From NCBI GenBank assembly GCA_028281065.1, contig JANQKN010000171.1, positions 1-64,000 of the forward strand: a DNA stretch of 64,000 bases. The letters are read 5' to 3'. Shown piece after piece: positions 5,559 to 26,417 of the stretch; positions within the stretch are counted from its first letter, which is position 1; every line of letters starts with the position of its first letter. Source of the stretch: Flavobacteriaceae bacterium. GTDB taxonomy: Bacteria; Bacteroidota; Bacteroidia; Flavobacteriales; Flavobacteriaceae. The position numbers and the translations under genes are program-made. The notes below the pieces were generated by a model. It was not told the origin of the DNA and did not search any database. It saw only the letters and a list, made by a program, of their open reading frames with translations.

Positions 5559-5589
5559 AGAGCGCAATCTGCTATTTAAAAATATTGGA

Positions 5590-6021
5590 TTAAGAACAGG
5601 CTATTTTGTCTACCCTTCTTTGGTGGCGGCCACCTTCAAAATCGGTTGCCAAGAACGTTTTTACCATTTCCACCGCTTGGGGAATGGCTGTAAACCGGGC
5701 AGGAATACATAAAATATTGGCGTTGTTATGCTGGCGAATCAATTCTACGATTTCTTTGGTCCAACACAAACCAGCTCTTACTTTTTGGTATTTATTGGCG
5801 GTCATAGCTACACCATTAGCGCTTCCACAAATAAGGATGCCCCAATCTACATCGTCTTGTTCCACTGCTTTTGCTACTGGGTGAACAAAATCCGGATAGT
5901 CTACACTATCAAAACTGTCGGTTCCGTGGTTTTCTACCGCTATACCTTGAGAGTCCAAATACTTGGCGATGGCAAATTTATAATCGGTTCCTGCGTGGTC
6001 GTTTCCTATGGCGATTTTCAT
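5590..6021 (-). CDS. rpiB: Ribose-5-phosphate isomerase B
   Basis: This enzyme interconverts ribose 5-phosphate and ribulose 5-phosphate in the non-oxidative pentose phosphate pathway. The 143-residue length is normal for the RpiB/LacAB family. Visible motifs are GNDHAG near the N-terminus (His9), the active-site Cys65 in ICGSANG, and a closing HQRRVDKI segment. The ATG at 6019-6021 is well supported by the conserved start MKIAIGNDHAG. A TAnnTTTG element 53 bases upstream (6074-6081) fits its promoter. The 570-bp candidate origin region lies immediately upstream. Confidence 0.95.
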   Translation of the reverse strand: MKIAIGNDHAGTDYKFAIAKYLDSQGIAVENHGTDSFDSVDYPDFVHPVAKAVEQDDVDWGILICGSANGVAMTANKYQKVRAGLCWTKEIVELIRQHNNANILCIPARFTAIPQAVEMVKTFLATDFEGGRHQRRVDKIACS

Positions 6022-6073
6022 GATTCGAATTTTATTGTCTGCCTTCCTTAATCACTTCGGCAGATATTCTGTA

Positions 6074-6081
6074 CAAAGATA
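6074..6081 (-). promoter_or_regulatory. Predicted -7 promoter element of rpiB
   Basis: The plus strand reads CAAAGATA, i.e. TATCTTTG on the coding strand, an exact match to the Bacteroidota primary sigma-factor -7 consensus TAnnTTTG. It lies 53 bases before the rpiB start. No convincing -33 TTG box was seen. Confidence 0.6.
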
Positions 6082-6164
6082 CTTTATGCAGTTTTATTTA
6101 CTCGATTTTTATAATACCAATATTATCAATTCTTTACCTTTTCTTAAAACTACGGTGATAATTT

Positions 6165-6178
6165 AGTTAACAACATTG
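6165..6178 (+). repeat. 14-bp direct repeat, copy 1
   Basis: AGTTAACAACATTG occurs here and, identically, at 6310-6323 within the candidate origin. It contains the palindrome GTTAAC, and this copy runs directly into a TGTTCATAT nonamer. Confidence 0.75.
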
Positions 6179-6309
6179 TTCATATTTGTTGATGTAAAAT
6201 GCATAAAAATATTTGGAGATTCGTTCAGGATTTTCAGATGTAAAAAATAATGGATTTCAACAAAAAAGTTAGCCTTGATTTATTGTTGATTTTTCCGCAG
6301 CGTTCCTTC

Positions 6310-6323
6310 AGTTAACAACATTG
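6310..6323 (+). repeat. 14-bp direct repeat, copy 2
   Basis: This is an exact copy of the 14-mer at 6165-6178, 145 bases away, and lies in the same non-coding region. Confidence 0.75.
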
Positions 6324-6590
6324 GTTCTCCCGCTTTTTTATCAAAAATAGGATGTTCATATCCCTTGTTCACAACTGTGAATGAAAACGAAAATTCATTT
6401 AAATTCAGCGTCTTATCCTTGGGGTATTTTGTTCATAACCTATTCGAAAAAAAACATAAATAGAAATCAAAACAATCTCCAAAAAAGTTATACCCCTTTT
6501 CAACAACACATCATCATCATTATTTTTAATTAAAATTTCAAAAAAAAGAAAAGAGATGTTTTAATAAATGTTGAAAAAGCGGAAAAACTG

Positions 6591-6833
6591 TTAAACGATA
6601 CGTAAGTGGGAAGGTCTGTTGTTTAAATCGTTGATGATTTCCTTTGCATTGGGAATATCGTCTTCGTGAACTTTAAGTTGAATACCTCCAATAGCGTTGG
6701 AATGGAAAGGAAGGATCCCAATAGTGGTTTCGTTCTGGAACACAAAGCGGATTCCACTTTGCTGCAGCAAATGCCTGAGTACCGTATACTCGCTGGGATA
6801 GGTGAAGATAGCTATGGTTCTATACTGTTCCAT
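6591..6833 (-). CDS. DUF2007 family putative signal-transducing protein
   Basis: This 80-residue protein is started at the ATG at 6833 (MEQYRTIAIF) rather than an upstream in-frame codon. It has the ferredoxin-like shape of DUF2007: an opening strand (TIAIFTYPSEY), a helix (VLRHLLQQSGI), a strand (FVFQNETT), and a final strand-helix (GGIQLKVHEDDIPNAKEIIND). DUF2007 domains are small ACT-like or GlnB-like folds without a firmly assigned function. It diverges from rnr across an 82-bp gap containing a perfect palindrome, and its 3' end borders the candidate origin. Confidence 0.82.
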   Translation of the reverse strand: MEQYRTIAIFTYPSEYTVLRHLLQQSGIRFVFQNETTIGILPFHSNAIGGIQLKVHEDDIPNAKEIINDLNNRPSHLRIV

Positions 6834-6864
6834 ACGTACTAAAATACTAAATTTTAACATCTAT

Positions 6865-6915: not shown

Positions 6916-9120
6916 ATGCCGAAACGGAAAAAGAGAAGTAAGAAGAAATATACCGAAGGACTTTCACAACCCATTTTAGAAATATTCCGTAAAAACCGAT
7001 CCACGGGACTTAACTACAAACAGATCGCAGCCAAACTAGGTGTAAGCGATGCCAGTGGAAGGAATCATATTATAAAAACACTAAAAAAACTTCAGGGTAA
7101 AGGAACCCTTCAAGAAATAGAAAGAGGAAAATACATCCTAACCCCATCTATGAATTACCATACCGGAACCCTCGATTTAACCAGTCGGGGACAAGGCTAC
7201 GTGATCGTAGAAGGAATGGAAGATGACATATTTGTAAAAAGTAAAAACATAAACCGTGCTTTGCATGGCGATGTGGTAGAAGTTTATGTCTTTAAACGAA
7301 GAAGAAGTGGAAAAGTTGAAGGCGAAATTACCCAAGTATTACAGCGAAAAAGAAAGGAATTTGTGGGAACCATTACGGTATCCGATCGTTTTGCTTTTGT
7401 GGAGTGTACTGGATACAATATGTACACCGATATTTTTATTCCTAAAAGCAAGATAAACAAAGCCAAGGACGGGGAAAAAGTGTTGGTTCGTATGGACGGA
7501 TGGGAAGAGAACAGCGAATCTCCTATTGGAACCGTGATGAAAGTGTTGGGAAAACCTGGGGACCACCATACAGAGATCCATGCCATTTTAGCCCAATACG
7601 GATTGCCGTACGAATTTCCTGCAGAAGTAGAAGCCTATGCCAATGAATTGGATACTTCTATTCAAGAACAGGAAATAAAAAAACGAAGGGACATGCGGGA
7701 GGTACTCACCTTTACCATAGATCCTAAGGATGCTAAGGATTTTGATGATGCCCTTTCGTTTGAACGTCTGGAAAATGGAAACTACGAAATAGGAATCCAC
7801 ATTGCGGATGTTTCCCATTATCTAAAACCAGGAACTGTGTTGGATGATGAAGCCTACGAACGGGCTACTTCCGTATATCTGGTAGATCGGGTAGTGCCTA
7901 TGTTGCCTGAAATTTTAAGTAATGGTGCTTGTTCGTTACGACCCCATGAAGAAAAATATACCTTTTCGGCTGTCTTCGAAATGAACGATAAAGGAAAGGT
8001 CGTGAACCAATGGTTTGGACGAACCGTTACCTATAGCGATGCCCGTTTTGCTTACGAAGAAGCACAACACATTATTGAATCCACTGTCTCCTCGAGTGCA
8101 GTCGAGAGGTCCATTCCTGCAGATATTTCGCTCACGGGAAAAACTTACGAAGTAGATTCCAACATAGCCGAAGCCGTATTGGAATTGGATCGTTTGGCAA
8201 AGATCCTTCGAAAAGAACGCATGCATGAAGGTGCCATTTCGTTCGATAAAGTAGAAGTAAAATTCCATTTGGACGAACATAACGAACCCGAAGGAGTATA
8301 TTTTAAAGAAAGCAAGGATGCAAATAAATTGATTGAAGAATTTATGTTATTGGCTAACCGAAGTGTAGCTGCCTTTATTGGAAAACAAAGTCCGAAAAAA
8401 ACCTTTGTGTATCGGGTTCATGATGAGCCAGATGATGAAAAGATTGCAGCTCTGGAAAATATGATCAAGCGGTTTGGATATAAACTCAATACCCAAAACA
8501 GACAAAGTACCGCAGCTTCCCTTAACAAACTACTGAAAGATGTACAGGGACGAAAAGAACAAAACATGATCGATACCTTGGCCATACGAAGTATGAGCAA
8601 AGCAGTGTATACCACCAATAATATTGGGCATTACGGTTTGGCGTTCGATTATTATACTCACTTCACCTCTCCTATCCGAAGGTATCCCGATGTCATGGTA
8701 CATCGTTTACTACAGTACTATTTAGACGGAGGTAAAAGTGCCAAGGAAGAGGAGTATGAAGATAAATGCCAACATTCCAGCGATATGGAACAATTAGCAG
8801 CCAATGCAGAACGCGATAGTATTAAGTACATGCAGGTAAAATACATGCAGGACCATCAGGACGAAGAATTTTTGGGTGTAATTTCCGGGGTGACCGAATG
8901 GGGGATCTATGTAGAAATTATTTCCAATAAATGTGAAGGAATGGTTCGCTTGGGTGATTTACAAGACGATCATTATACCTTCCATAAAGACGAATTTGCG
9001 GTAATTGGCGACCGAACCAAAAATGCGTATACCTTAGGTGATGAAGTATATGTAAAAGTGAAGAATGCCGATTTGGTCAAAAAACATTTAGATTTCAAGA
9101 TGTTAGGGCATCGTGAATGA
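6916..9120 (+). CDS. rnr: Ribonuclease R
   Basis: This 734-residue 3'-5' exoribonuclease degrades structured RNA. The N-terminal basic tail and winged helix (about residues 25-70, LNYKQIAAKLGVSD) precede cold-shock/OB domains. The RNB catalytic domain shows the metal-binding acidic cluster in DPKDAKDFDDALS (about residues 272-284) and the TSPIRRYPD motif near residue 588. An S1 domain ends the protein (about 650-725, GVISGVTEWGIYVE). Residues 391-399 (VSSSAVERS) are encoded by a REP-like palindrome also found in intergenic DNA at 11.1 and 14.6 kb. This is a poorly conserved loop, so activity is probably unaffected. Confidence 0.95.
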   Translation: MPKRKKRSKKKYTEGLSQPILEIFRKNRSTGLNYKQIAAKLGVSDASGRNHIIKTLKKLQGKGTLQEIERGKYILTPSMNYHTGTLDLTSRGQGYVIVEGMEDDIFVKSKNINRALHGDVVEVYVFKRRRSGKVEGEITQVLQRKRKEFVGTITVSDRFAFVECTGYNMYTDIFIPKSKINKAKDGEKVLVRMDGWEENSESPIGTVMKVLGKPGDHHTEIHAILAQYGLPYEFPAEVEAYANELDTSIQEQEIKKRRDMREVLTFTIDPKDAKDFDDALSFERLENGNYEIGIHIADVSHYLKPGTVLDDEAYERATSVYLVDRVVPMLPEILSNGACSLRPHEEKYTFSAVFEMNDKGKVVNQWFGRTVTYSDARFAYEEAQHIIESTVSSSAVERSIPADISLTGKTYEVDSNIAEAVLELDRLAKILRKERMHEGAISFDKVEVKFHLDEHNEPEGVYFKESKDANKLIEEFMLLANRSVAAFIGKQSPKKTFVYRVHDEPDDEKIAALENMIKRFGYKLNTQNRQSTAASLNKLLKDVQGRKEQNMIDTLAIRSMSKAVYTTNNIGHYGLAFDYYTHFTSPIRRYPDVMVHRLLQYYLDGGKSAKEEEYEDKCQHSSDMEQLAANAERDSIKYMQVKYMQDHQDEEFLGVISGVTEWGIYVEIISNKCEGMVRLGDLQDDHYTFHKDEFAVIGDRTKNAYTLGDEVYVKVKNADLVKKHLDFKMLGHRE
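8086..8110 (+). repeat. REP-like palindrome inside rnr
   Basis: This stretch contains CTCGAGTGCAGTCGAG and aligns without gaps with the intergenic elements at 11111-11135 and 14563-14587. The shared pattern is GTCnCnnYGAGYGYAGTCGARnnGt. It is read in frame as residues 391-399 of RNase R and keeps the reading frame open. Confidence 0.65.
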
Positions 9121-24495: not shown

Positions 24496-24511
24496 TGTTC
24501 CACGTGGAACA
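24496..24511. promoter_or_regulatory. parS: parS-like ParB-binding site 1
   Basis: TGTTCCACGTGGAACA is a perfect 16-bp palindrome. It differs by one base from the B. subtilis parS consensus TGTTnCACGTGAAACA. It lies 10 bases upstream of mnmG, between ybeY and mnmG, so it could also influence that gene. Confidence 0.8.
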
Positions 24512-24520
24512 TTTAGATTT

Positions 24521-26392
24521 ATGTTTGGTAAAGAATATGATGTTATTGTAGTAGGAGCTGGTCATGCCGGATCGGAAGCTGCGGCTGCGGCTGCCAATAT
24601 GGGATCGTCAACATTGCTCATTACAATGAATCTTCAGAACATTGCTCAAATGTCCTGCAATCCTGCCATGGGTGGAATTGCAAAAGGACAAATAGTAAGA
24701 GAGATTGATGCCCTAGGCGGATATAGCGGCATCGTTTCAGACAAAACTGCTATTCAATTTAAGATGTTGAATAAGTCTAAGGGACCTGCTATGTGGAGCC
24801 CAAGGGTGCAGAGTGATCGCATGCGCTTTGCAGAGACTTGGCGTTTAATGCTAGAATCTACTCCTAATCTTGATTTTTATCAGGAAATGGTTTCTGGTAT
24901 TTTAGTCGAACAAGATCGTGTTGTTGGAGTAAAAACCTCTCTTGGTTTAGAGGTAAGGGCCAAAACGGTAATTCTAACCAATGGCACTTTTTTGAATGGC
25001 TTGATCCATATTGGTGAGAAGCAATTTGGAGGAGGGAGAGCGGGTGAAAGAGCAGCCACAGGAATCACAAAAGACTTGGTCGATTTAGGTTTCGATTCGG
25101 GAAGGATGAAGACAGGAACACCCCCTCGAGTGGATGGTCGCTCTTTGGATTTTTCGAAGATGATTGTTCAGCCAGGTGATGAAGATCCACAAAAGTTTTC
25201 ATATTCAGGCGAAACAAAACCATTAACAGAACAGCGGGATTGTCATATGACCTATACCAGCTCCTTGGTTCATGATTTACTTAAGGAAGGTTTCGATCGT
25301 TCCCCAATGTTCAATGGAGCTATTAAAAGTATTGGCCCAAGGTATTGCCCTTCTATAGAAGACAAGATCAACCGTTTTGCTGACAAGGAAAGACACCAGC
25401 TTTTTGTTGAACCAGAAGGTTGGGATACTGTGGAATATTATATCAATGGATTCTCTACATCGCTCCCAGAGGATGTTCAATACAAAGCTTTGAAAGAGTG
25501 CGCTGGTTTCGAAAATGTGAAGTTCTTTAGACCAGGCTATGCGATAGAATACGACTACTTTCCACCCACACAGTTAAAGCATACTTTGGAAACCAAACTG
25601 GTTTCTGGGTTGTTTTTTGCAGGACAGATTAATGGAACCACGGGATACGAAGAAGCGGCTTCTCAAGGAATGATGGCAGGGATCAATGCACACCTAAAAG
25701 TACAGGAAAAAGATCCGTTTATCCTGAAAAGGGATGAAGCCTACATTGGGGTGTTGATAGATGATTTAATTACGAAGGGAACCGAAGAGCCTTATCGCAT
25801 GTTTACCTCACGTGCAGAATATCGAACCTTGCTCCGTCAAGATAATGCCGATTTTAGACTTACCCAAAAGTCTTTCGAAATGGGATTGGCCAGTGAAGCG
25901 CGCATGAAGAAGATGGAGAAGAAAAGGGAAGAAAGCGATGCATTTATAAAGTTTTTTAAAGACACCAGTGTAAAGCCAGAGGAAATCAACCCTATTTTGG
26001 AACACAAAAACTCTGCTGTAGTAAAACAAAGCGATAAGATGTTCAAGCTTTTTTCGCGCCCCAACATAACCATGGAGGATATGCGCAAAGTGGAAAGTGT
26101 GGATCAATATGTGGCAGAACATGATTTGGATACGGAGGTGCTTCAGCAAACCGAAATACAAGTAAAATATTCTGGATACATTGCAAAAGAAAAGTTGAAT
26201 GCAGACAAATTACATCGACTGGAAGGGATTAGAATCCCAGACAATTTCGATTACACAAAACTAAAGTCGTTGTCTTTTGAGGCCATGGAGAAATTGTCCT
26301 CCATACGCCCCGTTACCATTTCACAAGCTTCTCGAATAAGTGGGGTTTCCCCCAATGATATTTCAGTACTTTTGGTATACATGGGAAGATAG
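24521..26392 (+). CDS. mnmG: tRNA uridine-5-carboxymethylaminomethyl modification enzyme MnmG (GidA)
   Basis: This 623-residue FAD-dependent enzyme works with MnmE to modify wobble U34 of several tRNAs. The dinucleotide-binding motif VGAGHAGSEAA is at residues 11-21, and the active-site NPAMGGIAKGQ near residue 47. GTFLNGLIHIG, GRMKTGTPPRVDGRS and the C-terminal ISQASRISGVSPNDISVLL are all family hallmarks. Length is normal. Its flanks carry two near-identical parS-like sites, and in many bacteria mnmG lies close to oriC and the par genes. Confidence 0.96.
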   Translation: MFGKEYDVIVVGAGHAGSEAAAAAANMGSSTLLITMNLQNIAQMSCNPAMGGIAKGQIVREIDALGGYSGIVSDKTAIQFKMLNKSKGPAMWSPRVQSDRMRFAETWRLMLESTPNLDFYQEMVSGILVEQDRVVGVKTSLGLEVRAKTVILTNGTFLNGLIHIGEKQFGGGRAGERAATGITKDLVDLGFDSGRMKTGTPPRVDGRSLDFSKMIVQPGDEDPQKFSYSGETKPLTEQRDCHMTYTSSLVHDLLKEGFDRSPMFNGAIKSIGPRYCPSIEDKINRFADKERHQLFVEPEGWDTVEYYINGFSTSLPEDVQYKALKECAGFENVKFFRPGYAIEYDYFPPTQLKHTLETKLVSGLFFAGQINGTTGYEEAASQGMMAGINAHLKVQEKDPFILKRDEAYIGVLIDDLITKGTEEPYRMFTSRAEYRTLLRQDNADFRLTQKSFEMGLASEARMKKMEKKREESDAFIKFFKDTSVKPEEINPILEHKNSAVVKQSDKMFKLFSRPNITMEDMRKVESVDQYVAEHDLDTEVLQQTEIQVKYSGYIAKEKLNADKLHRLEGIRIPDNFDYTKLKSLSFEAMEKLSSIRPVTISQASRISGVSPNDISVLLVYMGR

Positions 26393-26401
26393 TTTTACAA
26401 A

Positions 26402-26417
26402 TGTTCCACGTGAAACA
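26402..26417. promoter_or_regulatory. parS: parS-like ParB-binding site 2
   Basis: TGTTCCACGTGAAACA matches the B. subtilis parS consensus exactly and lies 9 bases after the mnmG stop, 1.9 kb from site 1. Confidence 0.85.

Follow-up and report, generated by a model that had tools for sequence, protein, structure and literature searches.

Origins of replication have been placed in two genera of the Flavobacteriaceae by Ori-Finder, which located oriC at or adjacent to mnmG both in Mariniflexile litorale, where dnaA was rejected as a marker on account of its disagreement with GC skew (PMC11278836, in which ori and ter are labelled the opposite way round in a figure legend and in the text), and in Algorimicrobium (PMC12843772). 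Since these reports name mnmG in related genera, the chromosomal neighbourhood of oriC can be regarded as already known. Lineage-specific indicator genes contribute to the score that Ori-Finder gives an intergenic region, and for this reason "adjacent to mnmG" is perhaps in part a label supplied by the tool. We found no paper in the open-access literature that describes the gap between rpiB and rnr as oriC or gives its anatomy; a DoriC entry may exist. At the level of mechanism, the closest described counterpart is the basal unwinding system, defined by a DnaA box that has at least three DnaA-trios of the form 3'-NAN-5' no more than 16 bp away (PMC8287927).

The window, the 64,000-nucleotide stretch analysed here, spans positions 1-64000 of the 90.6-kb contig C80 in a 223-contig draft whose closest relative by rpiB is Aureisphaera galaxeae, of the same genus (94% RpiB identity). 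The original prediction had proposed a candidate replication origin between rpiB and the DUF2007/rnr pair, and GC skew and comparison with relatives both support it. Judged from sequence, we estimate a probability of roughly 93% that chromosome replication in this Aureisphaera-like flavobacterium starts in the gap at 6022-6593, a reading that draws on the skew switch, the enrichment of DnaA-type boxes, a core that is unique within genomes across the family, and the proximity of parS. The gap is bounded on the left by rpiB (5593-6021, minus strand, PF02502) and on the right by a gene for a DUF2007 protein (6594-6860, minus strand, PF09413), beyond which lies rnr, encoding RNase R (6916-9117, plus strand, PF00773). 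As proposed, the interval is gene-free and AT-rich (572 bp without an ORF, 72% AT), and most genes to its right lie on the plus strand. On the other side of rpiB, the interval to a GNAT gene is only 25 bp in the window (5568-5592), compared with about 0.9 kb in many relatives including A. galaxeae (L031:10437-11351), where it holds an ORF that by eye resembles a cation-efflux (CDF) transporter with a His-rich N-terminus; searching our genome with this CDF-like ORF, in a run made without a positive control, gave no match.

The exact nonamer TGTTNANAA occurs four times in the gap (at 6366, 6430 and 6569 on the plus strand and 6497 on the minus strand), short of the roughly ten TGTTnAnAA-like nonamers first claimed, but the enrichment itself stands: the shuffle mean is 0.55, and four or more copies arose in 2 of 1000 shuffles. 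The count comes to about nine once TGTTCATAT, TGTTGTTAAC and TGTGAATGA are taken as relatives of TGTTNANAA. A relaxed DnaA box, TGT[GT]NA[TC]A, is present five times against 0.49 in shuffles (0/1000 reaching this number), TGTTCATA three times against 0.04, and the densest 600-bp stretch of DnaA boxes in a scan of the whole window overlaps 6022-6593. The gap therefore carries a DnaA-box cluster beyond chance, as expected of an oriC. An exact search of the genome found no closely paired copies of exact TGTTNANAA. Starting from the rpiB side, TGTTGTTAAC (6166-6175, minus strand) stands beside TGTTCATAT (6177-6185, plus strand) in a pair conserved in the alignment and overlapped by the first copy (6165-6178) of a 14-bp direct repeat; this repeat, AGTTAACAACATTG, is exact as had been predicted, starts at 6165 and 6310, and has a length reached by only 2 of 300 dinucleotide shuffles. 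The alignment places a further TGTTGTTAAC (6311-6320, minus strand) inside the second repeat copy (6310-6323), and sequence search located another DnaA-type box, TGTTCATAT, at 6353-6361 on the plus strand. Next comes the box pair TGTTCACAA and TGTGAATGA (6366-6374 and 6376-6384), which forms the dyad TTCACA-AC-TGTGAA and at whose position relatives carry TATTAACA-ac-TGTTAATA-like pairs in the alignment, followed by the DnaA-type box TGTTCATAA (6430-6438, plus strand), which aligns with a conserved tAT.AACA box of relatives.

The part of the gap nearest DUF2007 is occupied by a conserved 97-bp core, a putative unwinding module (6482-6578, minus strand) made up of box 1, an AT-rich tract, a trinucleotide run, box 2 and GGTATAACTTTTT. 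Both boxes read TGTTGAAAA here; at box 1 (6569-6577, plus strand) most relatives have TTATCAACA on the opposite strand, and at box 2 (6497-6505, minus strand) relatives have TGTTAATA or TGTGGATA. A spacer of 4 nt separates box 2 from ATCATCATCATTATTTTT, after which comes the AT tract; the DnaA-trio-like run itself, (ATC)3(ATT)2TTT at 6510-6527 on the plus strand, reads 3'-NAN-5' on the other strand. Under a strict rule, this order of box, trinucleotide run and AT tract was found in 12 of 60 gaps, compared with 0.3 in shuffles. The tract (6519-6561) is likely the DNA unwinding element and appears in the alignment as a conserved T-run followed by AAATTT; the A/T block noted earlier was recovered at about 6522-6561 with 82-88% AT in 40-bp bins, so that an AT-rich element adjoining the boxes, another usual feature of oriC, is present by composition. 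Mean column identity of the core is 75% over 48 aligned loci, and it recurs in 58 orthologous gaps at nearly fixed length, most loci differing by no more than a few bases.

A cumulative GC-skew minimum had been predicted at 6-6.6 kb, and in the window's contig, where the reading is limited by only 6 kb of sequence to the left of the site, it was found at 6539, inside the core. In a same-genus contig (G133:C17, of which 400 kb was read), the minimum at 104110 again falls inside the core (104081-104176), and the 100-kb flanks to its left and right differ in skew (p=8e-9). Relatives were sampled in stretches of chromosome rather than as whole chromosomes, and of these the complete genome G037 is the clearest: skew lies between -0.11 and -0.18 as far as 218 kb and is +0.03 and then +0.16 beyond, it stays positive in the sampled stretches to 1.9 Mb, and it is negative from 2.3 Mb. 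This two-arm pattern over the sampled chromosome, with a switch from -0.16 to +0.16 at the core (218109), is the one expected if replication starts at the core and ends near 2.1 Mb, roughly half the chromosome further on. Local minima lie 10 kb past the core in G037 and 9 and 10 kb from it in G161 and G069, respectively; skew is noisy in G124 and G054, whose minima in the stretches read are 28 and 43 kb from the core, the latter on a plateau. Genes that run towards the origin on the rpiB side may account for the slight displacement of the minimum to that side. Overall, the core lies at the cumulative skew minimum, where an oriC is expected, in our contig and in G133, with a clear switch in G037.

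Three parS-like sites had been proposed within 25 kb; allowing up to two mismatches we found two, both of them perfect and conserved in relatives, namely TGTTCCACGTGGAACA (24496-24511, plus strand) and TGTTCCACGTGAAACA (26402-26417, plus strand). They lie 18-20 kb from the gap and about 1.9 kb apart, and in the window, where this arrangement was checked, mnmG (gidA; 24521-26389, plus strand, PF01134) sits between them. The locus thus shows the proximity of parS to oriC that marks a ParABS origin region. Most of the complete Flavobacteriaceae examined likewise have two parS approximately 1.9 kb apart, often with no other parS in the genome, and a few relatives have a single parS at the mismatch level used; among complete relatives with sites listed, parS lies about 8-55 kb from rpiB. 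An origin beside mnmG itself (about 24.5-26.4 kb), with the rpiB gap merely a DnaA-regulated region, would agree with the Ori-Finder reports cited above, and skew alone does not reliably separate points approximately 18 kb apart in most genomes. However, the gaps flanking mnmG measure 51 and 40 bp, each holding a 16-bp parS and neither a DnaA-box cluster, and were rejected as origins for being too short, while the skew minimum lies within the rpiB gap in two Aureisphaera genomes; given also the indicator genes on which the tool relies, we consider an origin at mnmG very unlikely.

The absence of dnaA from the vicinity was correctly anticipated: the gene sits on another contig (C205), and in the complete genomes used for comparison (G161, G188 and G037) at least about 1.1 Mb separates it from rpiB; in G037 it lies at 2.50 Mb within the negative skew arm. 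An adjoining dnaA, common for oriC and not required, is therefore missing here. The dnaA locus was also considered as an origin and rejected because it is far from the skew switch; two sampled dnaA loci had zero or two boxes.

The gap was compared with relatives, which are named loci fetched by RpiB; 59 of them keep rnr or DUF2007 no more than 1.5 kb upstream of rpiB. The predicted nonamer cluster is shared by about 59 orthologous gaps, where it takes the form of TGTTRATAA/TGTGGATAA-type boxes with conserved spacing, often fixed at about 72, 67 and 55 bp. Strong enrichment was seen in these gaps for TGTTAATA, TGTTGATA and TGTGGATA, and observed versus expected counts in 60 gaps were 33 versus 0.7 for TGTTAATAAC, 24 versus 0.3 for TGTTGATAAC, and 21 versus 1.3 for TGTGGATA. 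From the rnr/DUF2007 side, the order shared in the alignment is box 1 (TTATCAACA), AT tract, ATGATGNTTATTATAG, box 2 (TGTTAATA), GGTATAACTTTTT and box 3, past which follow a dyad-form box pair, further boxes, and a box beside GTTGTTAAC near rpiB. In the window's genus several boxes depart from the family consensus while keeping their positions; exact TGTKRATAA is no longer found in the gap of this genus, where the remaining boxes are of the forms TGTTCATA and TGTTGAAAA.

We then used R1, a model built on the sequence of the core alone, in unconstrained genome-wide searches that could return matches anywhere. In our own genome the core was the only strong match (E 3.6e-13), and a single strong match (E < 1e-6) was obtained in each of 35 of the 37 family genomes searched, or in 36 counting a weak match at the same place beside rpiB in G123; the training loci were picked by rpiB, and they may share species with some of these 37 genomes. 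Relative to rpiB, the matches lie 0.4-0.7 kb upstream, except in G134 and G142, where the distance is about 2 kb (0.4-2.1 kb overall). The core is in this sense single per chromosome and conserved in relatives, as an oriC should be. Among 149 genomes drawn from the class, those outside the family yielded only chance-level R1 matches, and the model is consequently uninformative on other Bacteroidota. The genome-wide search of G020 gave no convincing core match; the rpiB match in this genome (C1:954217-954639) has an internal stop, although its parS sites are 43 kb from rpiB. The G020 origin may have diverged or moved.

Conservation of this kind might also be sought in a promoter or regulatory region for rpiB, DUF2007 or rnr, the boxes being sites for a transcription factor or for DnaA as regulator; the gap is intergenic, promoters are AT-rich, and in many relatives without a detected DUF2007 the gap lies between divergent rnr and rpiB. 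Yet the length and identity of the core are the same whether the neighbour is the co-directional DUF2007 or the divergent rnr, the core is retained at about 2 kb from rpiB in G134 and G142, and a promoter leaves the skew switch and the proximity of parS unexplained, all of which makes this explanation highly improbable. Weakest of all, and hardly credible, is a DnaA-titration or timing site, since datA and DARS likewise contain DnaA boxes but a site of that type is expected neither at a skew minimum nor with an unwinding tract, both present here, and the core is unique per genome.

For the gap as origin, how initiation might proceed can be inferred from known DnaA and ParB biology. DnaA made from the distant dnaA gene would bind the cluster of TGTTNATA-type boxes, and a filament would grow from box 2 over the ATC/ATT trinucleotides and open the adjoining AT-rich tract, where the helicase would be loaded and forks would depart in both directions; ParB on the parS pair flanking mnmG, at a distance of 18-20 kb, would mark the origin region for segregation. 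The helix-turn-helix of DnaA reads RDHATV in our genome (L263) and in two relatives (L171 and L172), compared with RDHTTV in Escherichia coli, and this may relate to the TGTTNATA box. More tentatively, and less likely than not, the Flavobacteriaceae could have a family-specific origin code, consisting of the 97-bp module, TGTTNATA boxes and a shifted trinucleotide register, with a matching change in the DnaA helix-turn-helix (RDHATV).

A precise oriC would be of use for this large, mostly marine family, since position 1 of its genomes is often set at dnaA, which is not the origin by skew. The core model locates the predicted origin even in draft genomes and would aid growth-rate estimates from coverage, and the core could help in building oriC plasmids and in studying how DnaA boxes evolve in Bacteroidota.

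Compared with the oriC of Bacillus subtilis, with its DnaA-boxes #6/#7 and DnaA-trios (PMC8287927), the core has the same succession of box, short spacer, 3'-NAN-5' trinucleotides and AT-rich tract, whereas the gap is not beside dnaA, the trinucleotides are 3'-TAG/TAA-5' instead of the usual 3'-GAT-5', the spacer is 4 nt where the usual peak is 10-13, and the box is TGTTNATA rather than TGTGGATAA. Six trios begin 4 nt from box 2, a box that is degenerate in this genome, and because this exceeds the three required by the rule, the core probably works like the basal unwinding system; the preferred 3'-GAT-5' trio is absent beside box 2, where the register in the window is 3'-TAG-5', so that in the strict sense the core is only a possible member. 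The Ori-Finder predictions (PMC11278836, PMC12843772) concern the same family and the same chromosomal neighbourhood, but those papers name mnmG only, while the site described here is the rpiB gap, approximately 18 kb from mnmG, and comes with its anatomy. The E. coli-type oriC between gidA (mnmG) and mioC resembles the gap in being apart from dnaA and in the general region of mnmG; the present gap differs in not adjoining mnmG, in its box sequence, and in having a parS pair nearby. Thus, within a neighbourhood that was already known, the exact site and its predicted anatomy provide a well-supported further example of a bacterial oriC far from dnaA.
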